12,718 nt of DNA from assembly GCA_013812995.1 (NCBI GenBank), contig JACCSL010000947.1, positions 1-12,718 of the forward strand, given 5' to 3'. This DNA comes from Ardenticatenales bacterium. Lineage in GTDB: Bacteria; Chloroflexota; Anaerolineae; Ardenticatenales; Ardenticatenaceae. A model generated the notes under the pieces. The model was not told the origin of the DNA. It ran no database searches and saw nothing but the letters and a program-made list of their open reading frames with translations. This document shows, in pieces, positions 3,293 to 9,514 of this stretch (positions are counted from its first letter, which is position 1; each line of letters begins with the position of its first letter). The position numbers and the translations under genes are program-made.

Positions 3293-3299
3293 ACAGAAA

Positions 3300-3500
3300 G
3301 GCAAAGGGCAAAAGGCAAAAGTGACGGCAAAGAAGAATTATCCTTCCTACTCTGCCGTTACTTTTGCCTTTTGTGATTTTACGATTTGATGTTCCCTATG
3401 GAACCTGCTCAGTGACTTTCCGGCGTACATCAGCGCGTTGCTATCGTCCTTTATCGTTATTTTTGCCCTTTGCCCTTTGCCTTTTGCCCTTCCCCTTTTA
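3300..3500. repeat. GGCAAAR / YTTTGCC heptanucleotide repeats in opposite orientation
   Basis: Three tandem GGCAAAR heptads lie at 3300-3320. Two partial copies in opposite orientation lie at 3361-3373. Four perfect YTTTGCC heptads occupy 3461-3488, followed by a degenerate fifth. The left array can pair with the middle copies (local hairpin) or with the right array (long-range stem). A CCCCT-TTT-AGGGG mini-hairpin follows at 3492-3504. The rest of this 233-nt intergenic region shows no gene. Confidence 0.7.
3309..3373. terminator. Long hairpin between convergent genes, likely bidirectional terminator
   Basis: Arms 3309-3332 and 3350-3373 are 24 nt each. They pair with one A-C mismatch and one G-U wobble around a 17-nt loop. 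The hairpin begins 16 nt after the PrsW-like stop and faces the end of rpoD. The + strand continues into TTGTGATTTT and the arms are A/T-rich, but there is no clean T run, so it is not a textbook intrinsic terminator. Confidence 0.5.
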
Positions 3501-3525: not shown

Positions 3526-5154
3526 CTACGTTAAATAGTCTCGCAGCTTTTTGGAGCGCAGCGGGTGGCGGAGCTTGCGCAGGGCCTTGGCCTCGATCTG
3601 GCGAATGCGCTCGCGGGTGACGCCGAATTTCTGCCCGACCTCCTCCAGTGTGCGAGTCTGCCCATCCTCCAGACCGAAGCGCAGCGTGAGCACCTCTTTT
3701 TCCCGCTTGTTGAGCTGGTCCAGCACCTCCAGCATCTGCTCTTTGAGCAGTTTGCGCGAGGCGGCATCAACGGGGCCAGTGAGGGATTCATCGGGGATGA
3801 AATCGCCCAGGCTGGAGTTTTCCTCGTTGCCCACTGGAGTCTCCAGGCTCATCGGCTCCTGCGAGAGGCTCATAATGCGCAGCACCTTGGCCGCCGCGCG
3901 CTTGAGTTTGCGTGTGAGCAGCGGGTCCATCATGCGCTCGCCGCGCCAGGCGGCGCGAATCGACTCAATCTCCTCGGCCGCCAAGCCGACATCTTCCATC
4001 TCCAACGCGATTTCCTCGGCGGAGGGCTCGCGCCCCAGCTCCTGAACGAGGTTGCGACTGGTGCGGATGAGACGGTTGATCATGTCTACCATGTGAACGG
4101 GGATGCGAATCGTGCGCGCCTGATCGGCGATGGCGCGGGAGATGGCCTGGCGAATCCACCAGGTGGCGTAGGTAGAAAATTTGTACCCTTTGGTGTGGTC
4201 GAATTTTTCCACGGCGCGGAGGAGACCCAGGTTGCCCTCCTGGATGAGGTCCAGGAAGTTCATCCCGCGCCCCGTGTAGCGTTTGGCTACACTCACGACG
4301 AGGCGCAGGTTCGCCTCGGCCAGCAGGCTCTGGGCGCGGTGGGCCAGGACCGAGACGCGGCGGTAATGACGCTCCAACTCCTCGACTTCCAGATGATTGA
4401 GGAGGTCGAGAGTGCCTGGTGGCTGGAGCGGATCCTGAAGTGCTGTCAGTACATGGTCCGGCATCAGGAAGAGGCCAAGGGGCACATTGAAGAGGCGGCG
4501 CTTGGTCTTCTGCGCCAGGTCGGGCAGGTTGTGGTCGTACTGTGGAAAGGAGCGCCAGAAGTATTTTTCTGGGTAGAAAGGATGGTGGGGCGGCCAGGTC
4601 TTGCTCACCACCCTCACATCTTCCAGGATGCGGCTCAGGCTTGGCGGTTCCATATTCAGGCTGGTGCAGCCCTGGAGCACCGAGAGCCAGTTCTCGTAAA
4701 GGGTGTGGTAGGCCGCGTCGAGGATCGTGTGCGGAGCAGGAGGTGGCTCCCCTTCCTGGTACAACTCGTCGATGTACTGCTGCGCCCCGATCATCAGGGC
4801 CAACCAGATCTCTTCCTCCCCCGATAGTAGCGCAACCTTGTCGATCTCGCGCAGGTACATGCGCACCGGGTCACTGCCAGGATCGTCGACCTCTTCTTTG
4901 GCAGCGCTACGCTTCTCTTCTTTCTCTACCTGCTCCAGCTCCTCGTCCAGGGGCTCTTCCTCCTGCCAATCGGAGGGTTTGCCGATAGAGATACCACTTT
5001 CTTTCAGGGACTTGTAAATCGTCTCCAACTCCCCGGCAGGTAGGTTGGCGTCTGCAACACGAGCAATGACCTCCTGTTGGGTCAGGCGCTTCTCTGTTCC
5101 TGCTTTTTCAATCAGGGATTGGAGGATGACGTCTCGATCCGCTGGTGGGATCAT
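3526..5154 (-). CDS. rpoD: Primary sigma-70 factor RpoD/SigA
   Basis: A 542-residue housekeeping sigma factor that directs RNA polymerase to -35/-10 promoters. Visible parts: region 1.1-like N-terminus (1-56), acidic linker (62-92), region 1.2 ([10 protein letters not shown], 95-104), regions 2.1-2.4 (about 278-352, with [18 protein letters not shown] and [14 protein letters not shown]), region 3, the sigma finger (EPMSLETP onward, 433-456) and region 4.2 helix-turn-helix ([20 protein letters not shown], 502-521). Two extra segments stand out: about 145 residues between regions 1.2 and 2.1 (about 126-270), and about 23 residues (about 401-423) between regions 3.1 and 3.2. ATG 5154 is preceded by GGGAGG at 5163-5168 with 8-nt spacing. 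It follows dnaG in the same direction after 95 nt, the conserved macromolecular-synthesis arrangement, here without an adjacent rpsU. Confidence 0.97.
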
Positions 5155-7283: not shown

Positions 7284-7324
7284 GAGCTTCGGGTCGCTCC
7301 AGAGATGTGCGGAAAGGGGAATCG

Positions 7325-7356
7325 CGATTATAGCACGAAGCGAGGGGGTGAAAAGG
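7325..7356 (-). repeat. 32-bp promoter-like direct repeat, copy 1
   Basis: Positions 7325-7356 and 8466-8497 match at 28 of 32 bases in the same orientation. The differences fall at repeat positions 9, 10, 21 and 23. The match includes TTTTCA, CTCGCTTCGT and TATAAT on the reverse strand, and similarity stops abruptly outside. This copy is the dnaG promoter. Confidence 0.8.
7327..7354 (-). promoter_or_regulatory. Promoter of the dnaG-rpoD operon
   Basis: On the reverse strand TTTTCA (7349-7354) and a perfect TATAAT (7327-7332) are 16 bp apart, giving a start near 7320 and a short leader to ATG 7283. The surrounding 32 bp (7325-7356) recur at 8466-8497 with 28 of 32 positions identical. Confidence 0.7.
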
Positions 7357-7461: not shown

Positions 7462-7692
7462 ATGAAGGTAGCAACAACCGTAAACTTATCGGAAGACGTT
7501 CGACAAGTACTGGATCAACAAGCCTCTACGCTCCAAGCTCGGTCGGAAATAGTTGAAACGGCCTTACGAACCTTTTTTCAACAGCAACTAACATCTGAAC
7601 AAAACCAACAGGATTTAGCAATCATCAACGAGCACGCAGACGCCTTGAATGAGGAAGCTGCCGATGTGCTATCGTACCAGGCAGACTGGTGA
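7462..7692 (+). CDS. Ribbon-helix-helix (CopG/MazE-type) antitoxin
   Basis: A 76-residue acidic protein. Residues 1-43 fit a ribbon-helix-helix DNA-binding domain: the strand KVATTVNLS, helix [15 protein letters not shown], turn, then the helix starting at [13 protein letters not shown]. Such dimers bind operator DNA through the strand. The C-terminal half (44-76) is acidic and glutamine-rich, the usual toxin-binding tail. It overlaps the downstream MazF-like gene by 4 nt (GTGA), the standard antitoxin-first order of a type II module. By family knowledge it would neutralise the toxin and repress its own promoter. It is transcribed divergently from dnaG. Coding content is more A/T-rich than the flanking genes, consistent with acquisition by transfer. 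Confidence 0.85.
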
Positions 7693-8015
7693 AACGCGGC
7701 GAGTTGTATCTGGTAAAAAAGCCGTCTGGGGGTGATCCGAAACGACAGCGCGTGTTTGTGGTGGTGAGTCGCCAAGTCTTAATAGAGTCATCCTTTTCAA
7801 CGGTCATGTGTGCGCCTATCTATACACGCCATGATGGGTTATCCACACAAGTGCGGATTGGGGTGGAAGAAGGCTTAAAGCACGAGAGCAGCATTCACTG
7901 TGACGAGTTAATCAGTCTGCCCAAGATGATGCTCACCCATTTCGTTGGCTCTCTGTCTCCAGAAAGAATCCAAGAACTCAATCGGGCCTTGCGACTCGCC
8001 CTGGCAGTTGACTAA
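7689..8015 (+). CDS. mazF: MazF/PemK-family mRNA interferase toxin
   Basis: A 108-residue protein with the PemK/MazF fold order. It starts with RGELYLV (3-9), has a G/D-P loop before RVFVVVS (21-27), then [12 protein letters not shown] (36-47), [14 protein letters not shown] (66-79) and the closing [19 protein letters not shown] (87-105). MazF toxins are ribosome-independent endoribonucleases that cut at short sequences. R21 and T46 align with the residues needed for catalysis in Bacillus MazF (R25, T48), judged by eye. The start is GTG at 7689, overlapping the antitoxin stop and with no strong ribosome binding site, so translation is probably coupled to and lower than the antitoxin. The cleavage sequence cannot be predicted. 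Confidence 0.9.
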
Positions 8016-8022
8016 CAATTCC

Positions 8023-8164
8023 TCAGTGGATCCCTTCAGGGTCAGGTGGGTTTTTGAAAAGATGCCGATCCGCATTTAGGCCGATAATAATGCCGAGTAA
8101 CCCGTTAAAACCTCCTATTACCAACGCCGAATTGAAGGTATCTAAAAGTTGAACCAACTTATAG
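8023..8164 (-). pseudogene. Small decayed ORF with hydrophobic segment, cut by the MITE-like element
   Basis: The reverse strand reads in one frame from the MITE boundary to a TGA at 8023. It gives about 47 residues including the hydrophobic NSALVIGGFNGLLGIIIGL and the tail FKNPPDPEGIH. If the element at 8165-8395 and one copy of its target duplication are removed, the frame continues upstream for a few more codons before a TAA near 8426. No ATG or GTG start is present in that stretch. It looks like the 3' remnant of a small membrane protein gene, but chance is possible. I do not recognise a family. Confidence 0.25.
8161..8164 (+). repeat. Target site duplication ATAG, left copy
   Basis: ATAG directly precedes the left terminal repeat; the matching copy is at 8396-8399. 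With four bases, chance identity is possible, but its exact position at both termini supports transposition. Confidence 0.7.
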
Positions 8165-8395
8165 ATTGGACTTTTGACAATTTTAGGGCACTTCAAGAGG
8201 GGCCACAGATTGTTTGCAGGGAGAGCGGGTAGCGCCTGGGGAGCAACGCCGGAATAAAGTCGGGGTTTGGGCGATACGTCCCCGGTGCTCAAACCTCGAC
8301 TTTATTCGCCCCCCCCATTCCTGTGAGGTGTTTTTCTCTCTACAAGGGCCTCCTTCCTACCCACCTCAGAGGCCAATTTTTGTCAAAAGTCCAAT
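8165..8395. mobile_element. MITE-like element with 16-bp perfect terminal inverted repeats
   Basis: The ends 8165-8180 (ATTGGACTTTTGACAA) and 8380-8395 are perfect inverted repeats of 16 bp. ATAG at 8161-8164 and 8396-8399 forms a direct 4-bp target duplication. The 231-bp interior codes for no convincing protein and contains a 21-bp hairpin. These are the hallmarks of a non-autonomous miniature transposable element mobilised by a transposase encoded elsewhere. A 4-bp duplication fits several IS families (for example some IS5- or IS701-type), so the parent is unknown. The insertion abuts a small palindrome, AAGTTG-AAC-CAACTT (8146-8160). Confidence 0.85.
8252..8307. repeat. 21-bp stem-loop inside the MITE-like element
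   Basis: Arms 8252-8272 and 8287-8307 pair over all 21 positions, 19 Watson-Crick plus 2 G-U when read as + strand RNA. The loop is 14 nt. The arm core is AATAAAGTCG. The differences between the arms keep pairing only in one RNA orientation, suggesting a possible role as RNA or as a transposase-recognised fold. Confidence 0.75.
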
Positions 8396-8399
8396 ATAG
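8396..8399 (+). repeat. Target site duplication ATAG, right copy
   Basis: ATAG directly follows the right terminal repeat and pairs with the copy at 8161-8164. Confidence 0.7.
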
Positions 8400-8465
8400 A
8401 TGACGTATTTCGTGGATAGGCTTTAGGGGAGGGCCGCGAGTAAGCAGTATATTTGGTAACAAGCA

Positions 8466-8497
8466 CGATTATAATACGAAGCGAGTGTGTGAAAAGG
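8466..8497 (-). repeat. 32-bp promoter-like direct repeat, copy 2
   Basis: This copy matches 7325-7356 at 28 of 32 positions. On the reverse strand it carries TTTTCA (8490-8495), a 16-bp spacer and a perfect TATAAT (8468-8473). It would fire leftward into 8460-8023, where only the decayed ORF and the MITE-like element lie. It is either an orphan promoter or the trace of a duplication. Confidence 0.75.
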
Positions 8498-8498
8498 G

Positions 8499-8654
8499 GG
8501 AGGCTGATTCCAGTGGACTGTCAAGGCTGGAGTGATGATTTGCCATGCGACTGAAGTCGCCCCTTGTAGCCGTTGGCCGGGCGTCCGCGTAGGCGGACGC
8601 GACATAGGCATTCATCAAAGCACGCATGACAGACCACTAGGGGAATCAGCCTCC
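8499..8654. repeat. Fold-back (long inverted repeat) element with two internal palindromes
   Basis: The left end 8499-8523 and right end 8627-8654 are inverted copies. There is a perfect 13-bp outer arm (GGAGGCTGATTCC, 8499-8511, against 8642-8654), then 12 further positions with one mismatch after a 3-nt insertion on the right. Weaker inverted similarity continues inward (around 8532-8551 against 8600-8618). Inside are GCGACT-GA-AGTCGC (8547-8560) and GCGTCCGC-GTAG-GCGGACGC (8581-8600). It begins 11 nt past the stop of the 3-hydroxybutyryl-CoA dehydrogenase gene, so as RNA it could terminate or protect that transcript. No clear target duplication is seen. Confidence 0.75.
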
Positions 8655-8665
8655 TCAACCCTCTG

Positions 8666-9514
<849 letters not shown>

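Follow-up and report, generated by a model that had tools for sequence, protein, structure and literature searches.

A probable MITE of IS4-like origin with a conserved, transposase-like central hairpin in an Ardenticatenales bacterium

Results

A MITE between two convergent genes

The 229-bp sequence at positions 8166-8394 of the window (the whole 12,718-nt stretch of Ardenticatenales bacterium DNA analysed here) is, with a probability we put at roughly 90%, a MITE, derived from an insertion sequence that is IS4-like and most likely of the NF041680 type, and moved in trans by the DDE transposase of that insertion sequence. Copies of the element are present elsewhere in the host genome, its ends are common to an end-sharing, transposase-bearing insertion sequence in the same host, it is flanked by a target duplication, and its centre is similar to the transposase gene. 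The original prediction of an intact non-autonomous transposable element is thereby upheld, as the element is multi-copy at unrelated host sites in addition to having these ends and duplications. The parts of the element are listed below by window position.

8160-8165, no strand: left target duplication TATAGA, 6 bp, with the flanks read against the 15-bp core
8166-8180, + strand: left terminal inverted repeat TTGGACTTTTGACAA, 15 bp; the ends read TTGG...CCAA
8166-8394, + strand: MITE, 229 bp, with a further complete copy in contig C558 (95% identical) and three partial copies
8252-8307, + strand: 56-nt hairpin at the centre (arms 8252-8272 and 8287-8307), similar to the partner transposase gene at its 3' end
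8380-8394, - strand: right terminal inverted repeat, 15 bp, matching the left TTGGACTTTTGACAA end
8395-8400, no strand: right target duplication TATAGA, 6 bp, the same six bases as on the left

The MITE lies between two convergent genes whose 3' ends are 650 bp apart, namely a PemK/MazF-like toxin gene (PF02452) that ends at 8015 on the left and a 3-hydroxyacyl-CoA dehydrogenase gene that ends at 8666 on the right. The sequences 8165-8180 and 8380-8395 form perfect 16-bp inverted repeats, and ATAG stands at 8161-8164 and again at 8396-8399, which the original prediction had read as 16-bp ends and a 4-bp duplication bounding an element of 231 bp. The intact element, its perfect repeats and the direct repeat at both ends are all real, but the borders need to be moved by one base at each end: the outermost base is target, the proper terminal inverted repeat is 15 bp long, the duplication is the 6-bp TATAGA, and the element measures 229 bp. 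Two further predicted properties, the lack of coding capacity and the internal hairpin, held as described. Neither of the two overlapping ORFs of at least 60 aa (61 and 89 aa) gave a Pfam match above cut-off, and the inner hairpin has 21-nt arms (8252-8272 and 8287-8307) with 90% complementarity, the 231-nt strand folding with z = -4.46 and none of 200 shuffles equalling it.

Target duplications

The length of the duplication was counted in 36 elements with such ends, accepting at most two mismatches per end to either core variant, taking the nearest partner, and excluding viral loci and elements at locus edges. Duplications of 6 bp were found in 11 elements, of 7 bp in 11 and of 8 bp in one, with none of 3-5 bp; the other 13 have a direct repeat of only 0-2 bp and were counted as without duplication. 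A single genome, S016_19, contributes 19 of the 36 (12 of the 19 duplicated), and 11 of the remaining 17 are duplicated. The first list of pairs also numbered 36, and three nested chance pairs with three mismatches (L017 at 422 bp, L176, and L180 at 1477 bp) were removed from it. L053, which has three mismatches in one end, is absent from the final count, its 7-bp duplication TGGTTGA having stood in the first list, and the G130 insertion sequence, with TAAGG (5 bp) in a shifted register, was scored as without duplication.

Among the 23 duplicated elements, the outermost base is T at the start of the duplication in 15 and A at its end in 20, and where it departs from the usual base both copies change (ACTCAGA, TACTACT, CCTTCA, TACTGC). 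Because the base beside TTGG/CCAA varies jointly with the duplication in relatives, it is part of the target and not of the element, and the element therefore spans 8166-8394, or 229 bp. The same joint variation rules out a 4-bp duplication with 16-bp ends and likewise a 5-bp duplication. Copies with differing duplications, proposed beforehand as a check, are thus seen among relatives but not between the two complete host copies, both of which are flanked by TATAGA; this identity may be a coincidence or may reflect a target preference.

Copies in the host and spread in the class

The host assembly comprises 5.03 Mb in 1,069 contigs and is 83.6% complete. It contains five matches to the MITE, two of them complete. 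The second complete copy (C558:1222-1460) is 95% identical to that of the window, with an alignment that stops at the MITE borders; no alignment was obtained between their wider flanks, and the two sites are unrelated. The partial copies lie in C346, C950 and C1038, the last truncated by the contig end. The element accordingly has the features by which MITEs are recognised: it is present in several copies at sites that are unrelated and bear target duplications (two complete, TATAGA each), it is 229 bp long (below about 500 bp) without a transposase gene, and it shares its terminal inverted repeats with a transposase-bearing element.

A nucleotide search of 150 genomes including the host matched the MITE in none of the other 149. 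Across the class, to which both the host and G038 belong, 23 of 396 genomes contain the exact 16-mer end and none contains its reversed control. Elements of about 230 bp with these ends are also found in other families of the class, with two in G243, two in G340 and one in G298, those of G340 and G298 carrying the end variant TTGGACTTTGGACAA. Outside Chloroflexota, no exact 16-mer match among the matches listed had an opposite end (at most two mismatches) at a fitting distance. Viral contigs gave 22 exact 16-mer matches, none with the opposite end within 2 kb; an end pair in the viral locus L236 is unrelated, with three mismatches on each side, and the viral matches were taken as chance.

Two observations concern other elements with these ends. 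In S016_19 (L118, L104 and other WFSD01 loci), a separate MITE family of about 181 bp is present in many copies; it has the ends of the window MITE and a different interior, and 12 of 19 complete copies have duplications of 6-8 bp. In L179 (G340), a MITE at 342-571 and an end-sharing insertion sequence at 610-2161 are separated by 38 bp, and both are flanked by a 6-bp duplication of their own (TTGTAA for the MITE and TAGTGA for the insertion sequence), and the MITE is located at a promoter-like sequence.

An empty site was sought in two places, and a clean one was found in neither. In the 12 relatives searched, matches to the right flank of the window MITE were confined to the coding part of that flank. 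For the MITE at G340:C1, the upstream region is common to all six genus-mates, and in G393 the similarity extends for another 36 bp (86%) to the target bases TATTGTA, after which the sequence continues without the MITE; the right side of the site does not align in G393, and we regard this as a suggestive candidate for the empty site.

A probable partner insertion sequence with the same ends

The core of the terminal repeat occurs 14 times in the host and a reversed control pattern not once. Seven of these cores lie in MITE copies, six are ends of larger elements and one is at C401. At C138:2473, an exact 16-bp end stands beside a transposase gene in two overlapping frames (317 and 184 aa) that is cut by the contig end, and the two pieces score 274 and 84.7 bits against NF041680. 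Five other contigs (C769, C798, C956, C957 and C1041) break off 124-126 bp inside the end and are 79-80% identical to the C138 end, as is expected of a multi-copy insertion sequence collapsed by the assembler. The host assembly, which is incomplete, yielded no intact gene of the NF041680 type.

Insertion sequences that are complete and exact at both ends are present in G340 (three), G145 and G130, with 1,550-1,582 bp between core ends; together with C138 in the host, they answer the earlier suggestion to look for an insertion sequence with the same ends and a transposase. Open frames of 475-494 aa are found in G340:C8, G340:C23, G145 and G130, and G340:C1 has none of at least 200 aa. For the three transposases scanned, NF041680 was the best-scoring family at 430.6, 417.1 and 452.3 bits (cut-off 440, which one of the three passes), and all three also match Pfam DDE_5. 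Three of the five complete insertion sequences are duplicated (TAGTGA, TCGGTTA and TGTGCTA, of 6, 7 and 7 bp), and that of G145 is not. The motif Y-(2)-R-(3)-E-(6)-K is present in all five transposases scanned for it, four of them end-bearing and the fifth (C679) a distant host relative without the end.

Judging from anatomy and copies, the element would be mobile as follows. The partner DDE transposase would recognise the common 15-bp end, excise the MITE and insert it where the target is cut with a stagger of 6-7 bp, so that mobilisation would take place in trans and, we infer, by cut-and-paste chemistry. Insertion between the two convergent genes would leave TATAGA on each side, and the centre would be what is left of the 3' end of the transposase gene, now turned into a near-perfect palindrome.

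A conserved central hairpin

By motif scan, the window, C558, G243 and G340 elements all carry the 56-nt hairpin at offset 86-87. Six elements align across it without gaps, 6 of its 21 pairs having both-sided changes. Their covariation scores 0.273; shuffles gave 0.137, none of 500 reaching the observed value, and sliding the partners gave 0.083 at most. However, the count of further pair types does not exceed that of shuffles (389 of 500), and near-identical host copies make up three of the six elements. A covariance model built on the hairpin alone, ends excluded, was run over 396 genomes including the host and matched 16 of them, and every match above 40 bits is an element of the MITE kind (G000, G243, G340 and G298). 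The matches fall at 23 loci, of which 16 were checked for ends, the other seven being known elements or the second strand of one locus. An end pair was found in four of the 16 (G340:C52, 228 bp; G298:C206, 226 bp; G298:C236, 344 bp; G362:C11, 332 bp) and a single perfect end in two (G294:C130 and G366:C5). The remaining ten have no end or only matches with 3-4 mismatches, score at most 36.7 bits, and are probably chance.

Origin of the centre

Of four insertion sequences tested with the hairpin model, three gave weak matches roughly 80 nt ahead of where the transposase frame stops (E 0.0011-0.03 over 11.7 kb), and G145 gave none; in a wider search of 57 loci, the model's insertion-sequence matches have E values of 0.033-0.93. 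In G366, the match (E 2.2e-4, by a model blind to the ends) is to a transposase 3' end that is followed by a terminal repeat. When five MITE interiors were aligned to four insertion sequences in both orientations, 26 of the 40 best alignments fell on the 70-nt segment of the transposase gene that the model also matches, as compared with 64 of 1600 (4%) for mononucleotide-shuffled MITEs; the 40 alignments are not independent, since the five MITEs and the four insertion sequences are mutually related. A separate dinucleotide-shuffle test gave p < 0.03 for 10 of 40, nine of them on this segment. Between the MITE and the C138 transposase gene of the host there is also an exact antisense match of 14 nt, a length reached by at most 1 of 300 shuffles.

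Folded as a palindrome, the segment forms 12-15 of 21 pairs in five insertion sequences and 18 in G366. In those five it is not the best palindrome, ranking 6-170 of about 4,000-4,600, and the best palindrome in four MITEs has 17-21 pairs. These matches, taken with the weaker palindrome in the insertion sequences, point to the 3' end of the transposase gene as the most likely source of the MITE centre. The remnant would since have become palindromic, which may have come about through selection or through template switching during replication.

One possible role of the hairpin, which would account for a transposase piece being kept in MITEs of several families with its pairing maintained, is that of a trans-acting antisense regulator, in which MITE RNA would base-pair with the transposase mRNA at its 3' coding end and damp transposition. 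Going by the sequences, we consider this role quite improbable; if true, it would mean that a parasite of the transposon also polices it.

Discussion

Relation to known families

The partner is best described as an IS4-like element of the NF041680 type that appears to fit the IS4 definition in part only, having the YREK motif and duplications of 6-7 bp. In a published account of IS4, the IS4 subgroups are given a YREK motif and duplications of 7-13 bp, while IS701 (4 bp), ISH3 (4-5 bp) and IS1634 (5-6 bp) are listed without YREK (PMC2266710). An IS701 partner was rejected, with duplications of 6-7 bp as opposed to 4 bp, the YREK motif present, and the IS701 models under cut-off. The IS1634 definition was rejected as well: YREK is present, duplications are 6-7 bp as opposed to 5-6 bp, and the three proteins scanned gave no NF033559 match at E 0.001. 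IS701 and IS1634 are nonetheless alike in having DDE transposases related to IS4, according to the same account (PMC2266710), and the IS701_3 model NF049999 is the second-best NCBIfam match of the partner transposases (62.8-80.3 bits, cut-off 170). Of the IS4 subgroups described there, ISPepr1 resembles the partner in its YREK motif, its length of 1.5-1.6 kb and its published 7-8 bp duplication; it differs in that 6 or 7 bp are duplicated here (8 bp once) and in that the ends here are TTGGAC, outside the published YT-AA-YTT consensus (PMC2266710).

NF041680, the best-scoring family for transposases beside the same ends, is a name for a family of putative transposases without described ends or duplication length. 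A literature search for it found no mention, and a search for the end letters GGACTTTTGACAA did not find them. The original prediction recognised no named family; this still holds for the MITE, for which the literature text that could be searched gave no named family, but the type of the partner can be named. Prokaryotic MITEs are described as short elements that lack a recognisable gene, have ends like those of transposase-bearing insertion sequences as well as direct repeats, and occur in several copies, all as here; their likeness to the partner is usually limited to the ends (PMC3852290). The present element departs from that pattern in that its centre keeps a transposase-like hairpin common to several taxonomic families, and this conserved hairpin of probable transposase origin is the one feature that may surprise a specialist.

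In this way a MITE family that has no name is connected, across a poorly annotated class, with the insertion sequence that is its likely partner. The exact ends and the target rule of 6-7 bp can be used by annotation tools, and a transposase gene fragment that has seemingly turned into a palindrome and been kept across taxonomic families provides a case in which one can test why hairpins persist in MITEs.

Alternative explanations

The ends are not exclusive to one transposase type, because L055 has an IS4_2-type transposase frame (159.9 bits, cut-off 152) starting 136 nt inward of an exact end, and L092 has a frame of IS1634-like type (97.8 bits, cut-off 100) starting 531 nt inward of another. 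No second end was seen at either locus. The partner type is therefore less than certain, and the MITE could have been mobilised by an IS4_2- or IS1634-type transposase with the same ends, all the more as a single IS1634 transposase (C285) and weak matches to IS4_2 (C679 and C749) are present in the host. We nevertheless think this unlikely. A scan of the C285, C679 and C749 loci at up to five mismatches showed no such end, apart from one five-mismatch match at C679, so that among the host transposase loci examined C138 is the only one bearing the end; moreover, the complete end-sharing insertion sequences are of the NF041680 kind in all three scanned (of five found), and it is the NF041680-type gene that the MITE centre resembles.

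That the element is instead a repeated structured RNA gene or regulatory host hairpin, with no transposon behind it, is highly improbable, although its strong folding and the both-sided changes in the conserved hairpin would suit such a gene. Its ends are those of insertion sequences and are accompanied by target duplications, the flanks of the two host copies are unrelated, and it is absent from 149 relatives. Furthermore, no Rfam family was matched in the window, no terminator-like site was detected in 7950-8700, and the sole promoter-like site there lies outside the element. A 4-bp direct repeat is uninformative by itself, and one could imagine that chance inverted repeats and a chance 4-bp repeat had met in an intergenic region. 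The odds of this are negligible: the real window has three perfect 16-nt inverted words at a spacing of 60-400, as compared with a mean of 0.01 (maximum 1) in 100 dinucleotide-shuffled windows, the ends occur class-wide with a control of zero, and the existence of copies in the host genome refutes a chance origin.

Other repeats and genes in the window

About 100 bp from the MITE, another MITE-like inverted repeat, GGAGGCTGATTCC ... GGAATCAGCCTCC, was noted by eye at 8499-8656; its inner part (8547-8601) has 84% matches at C893 and C716 of the host. A 37-nt direct repeat (84%) has one copy at 7320-7356, upstream of a small ORF that precedes the toxin gene, and the other at 8461-8497, just downstream of the MITE, where it overlaps a promoter-like match on the - strand. 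The small ORF (76 aa) and the PemK/MazF-like toxin gene that follows it make up a toxin-antitoxin-like pair at 7462-8015, the antitoxin-like Pfam matches of the former being sub-threshold only. Lastly, the gap between two genes at 3297-3498 contains several overlapping inverted repeats of the type AAAGGCAAAGGGCAAAAGG.
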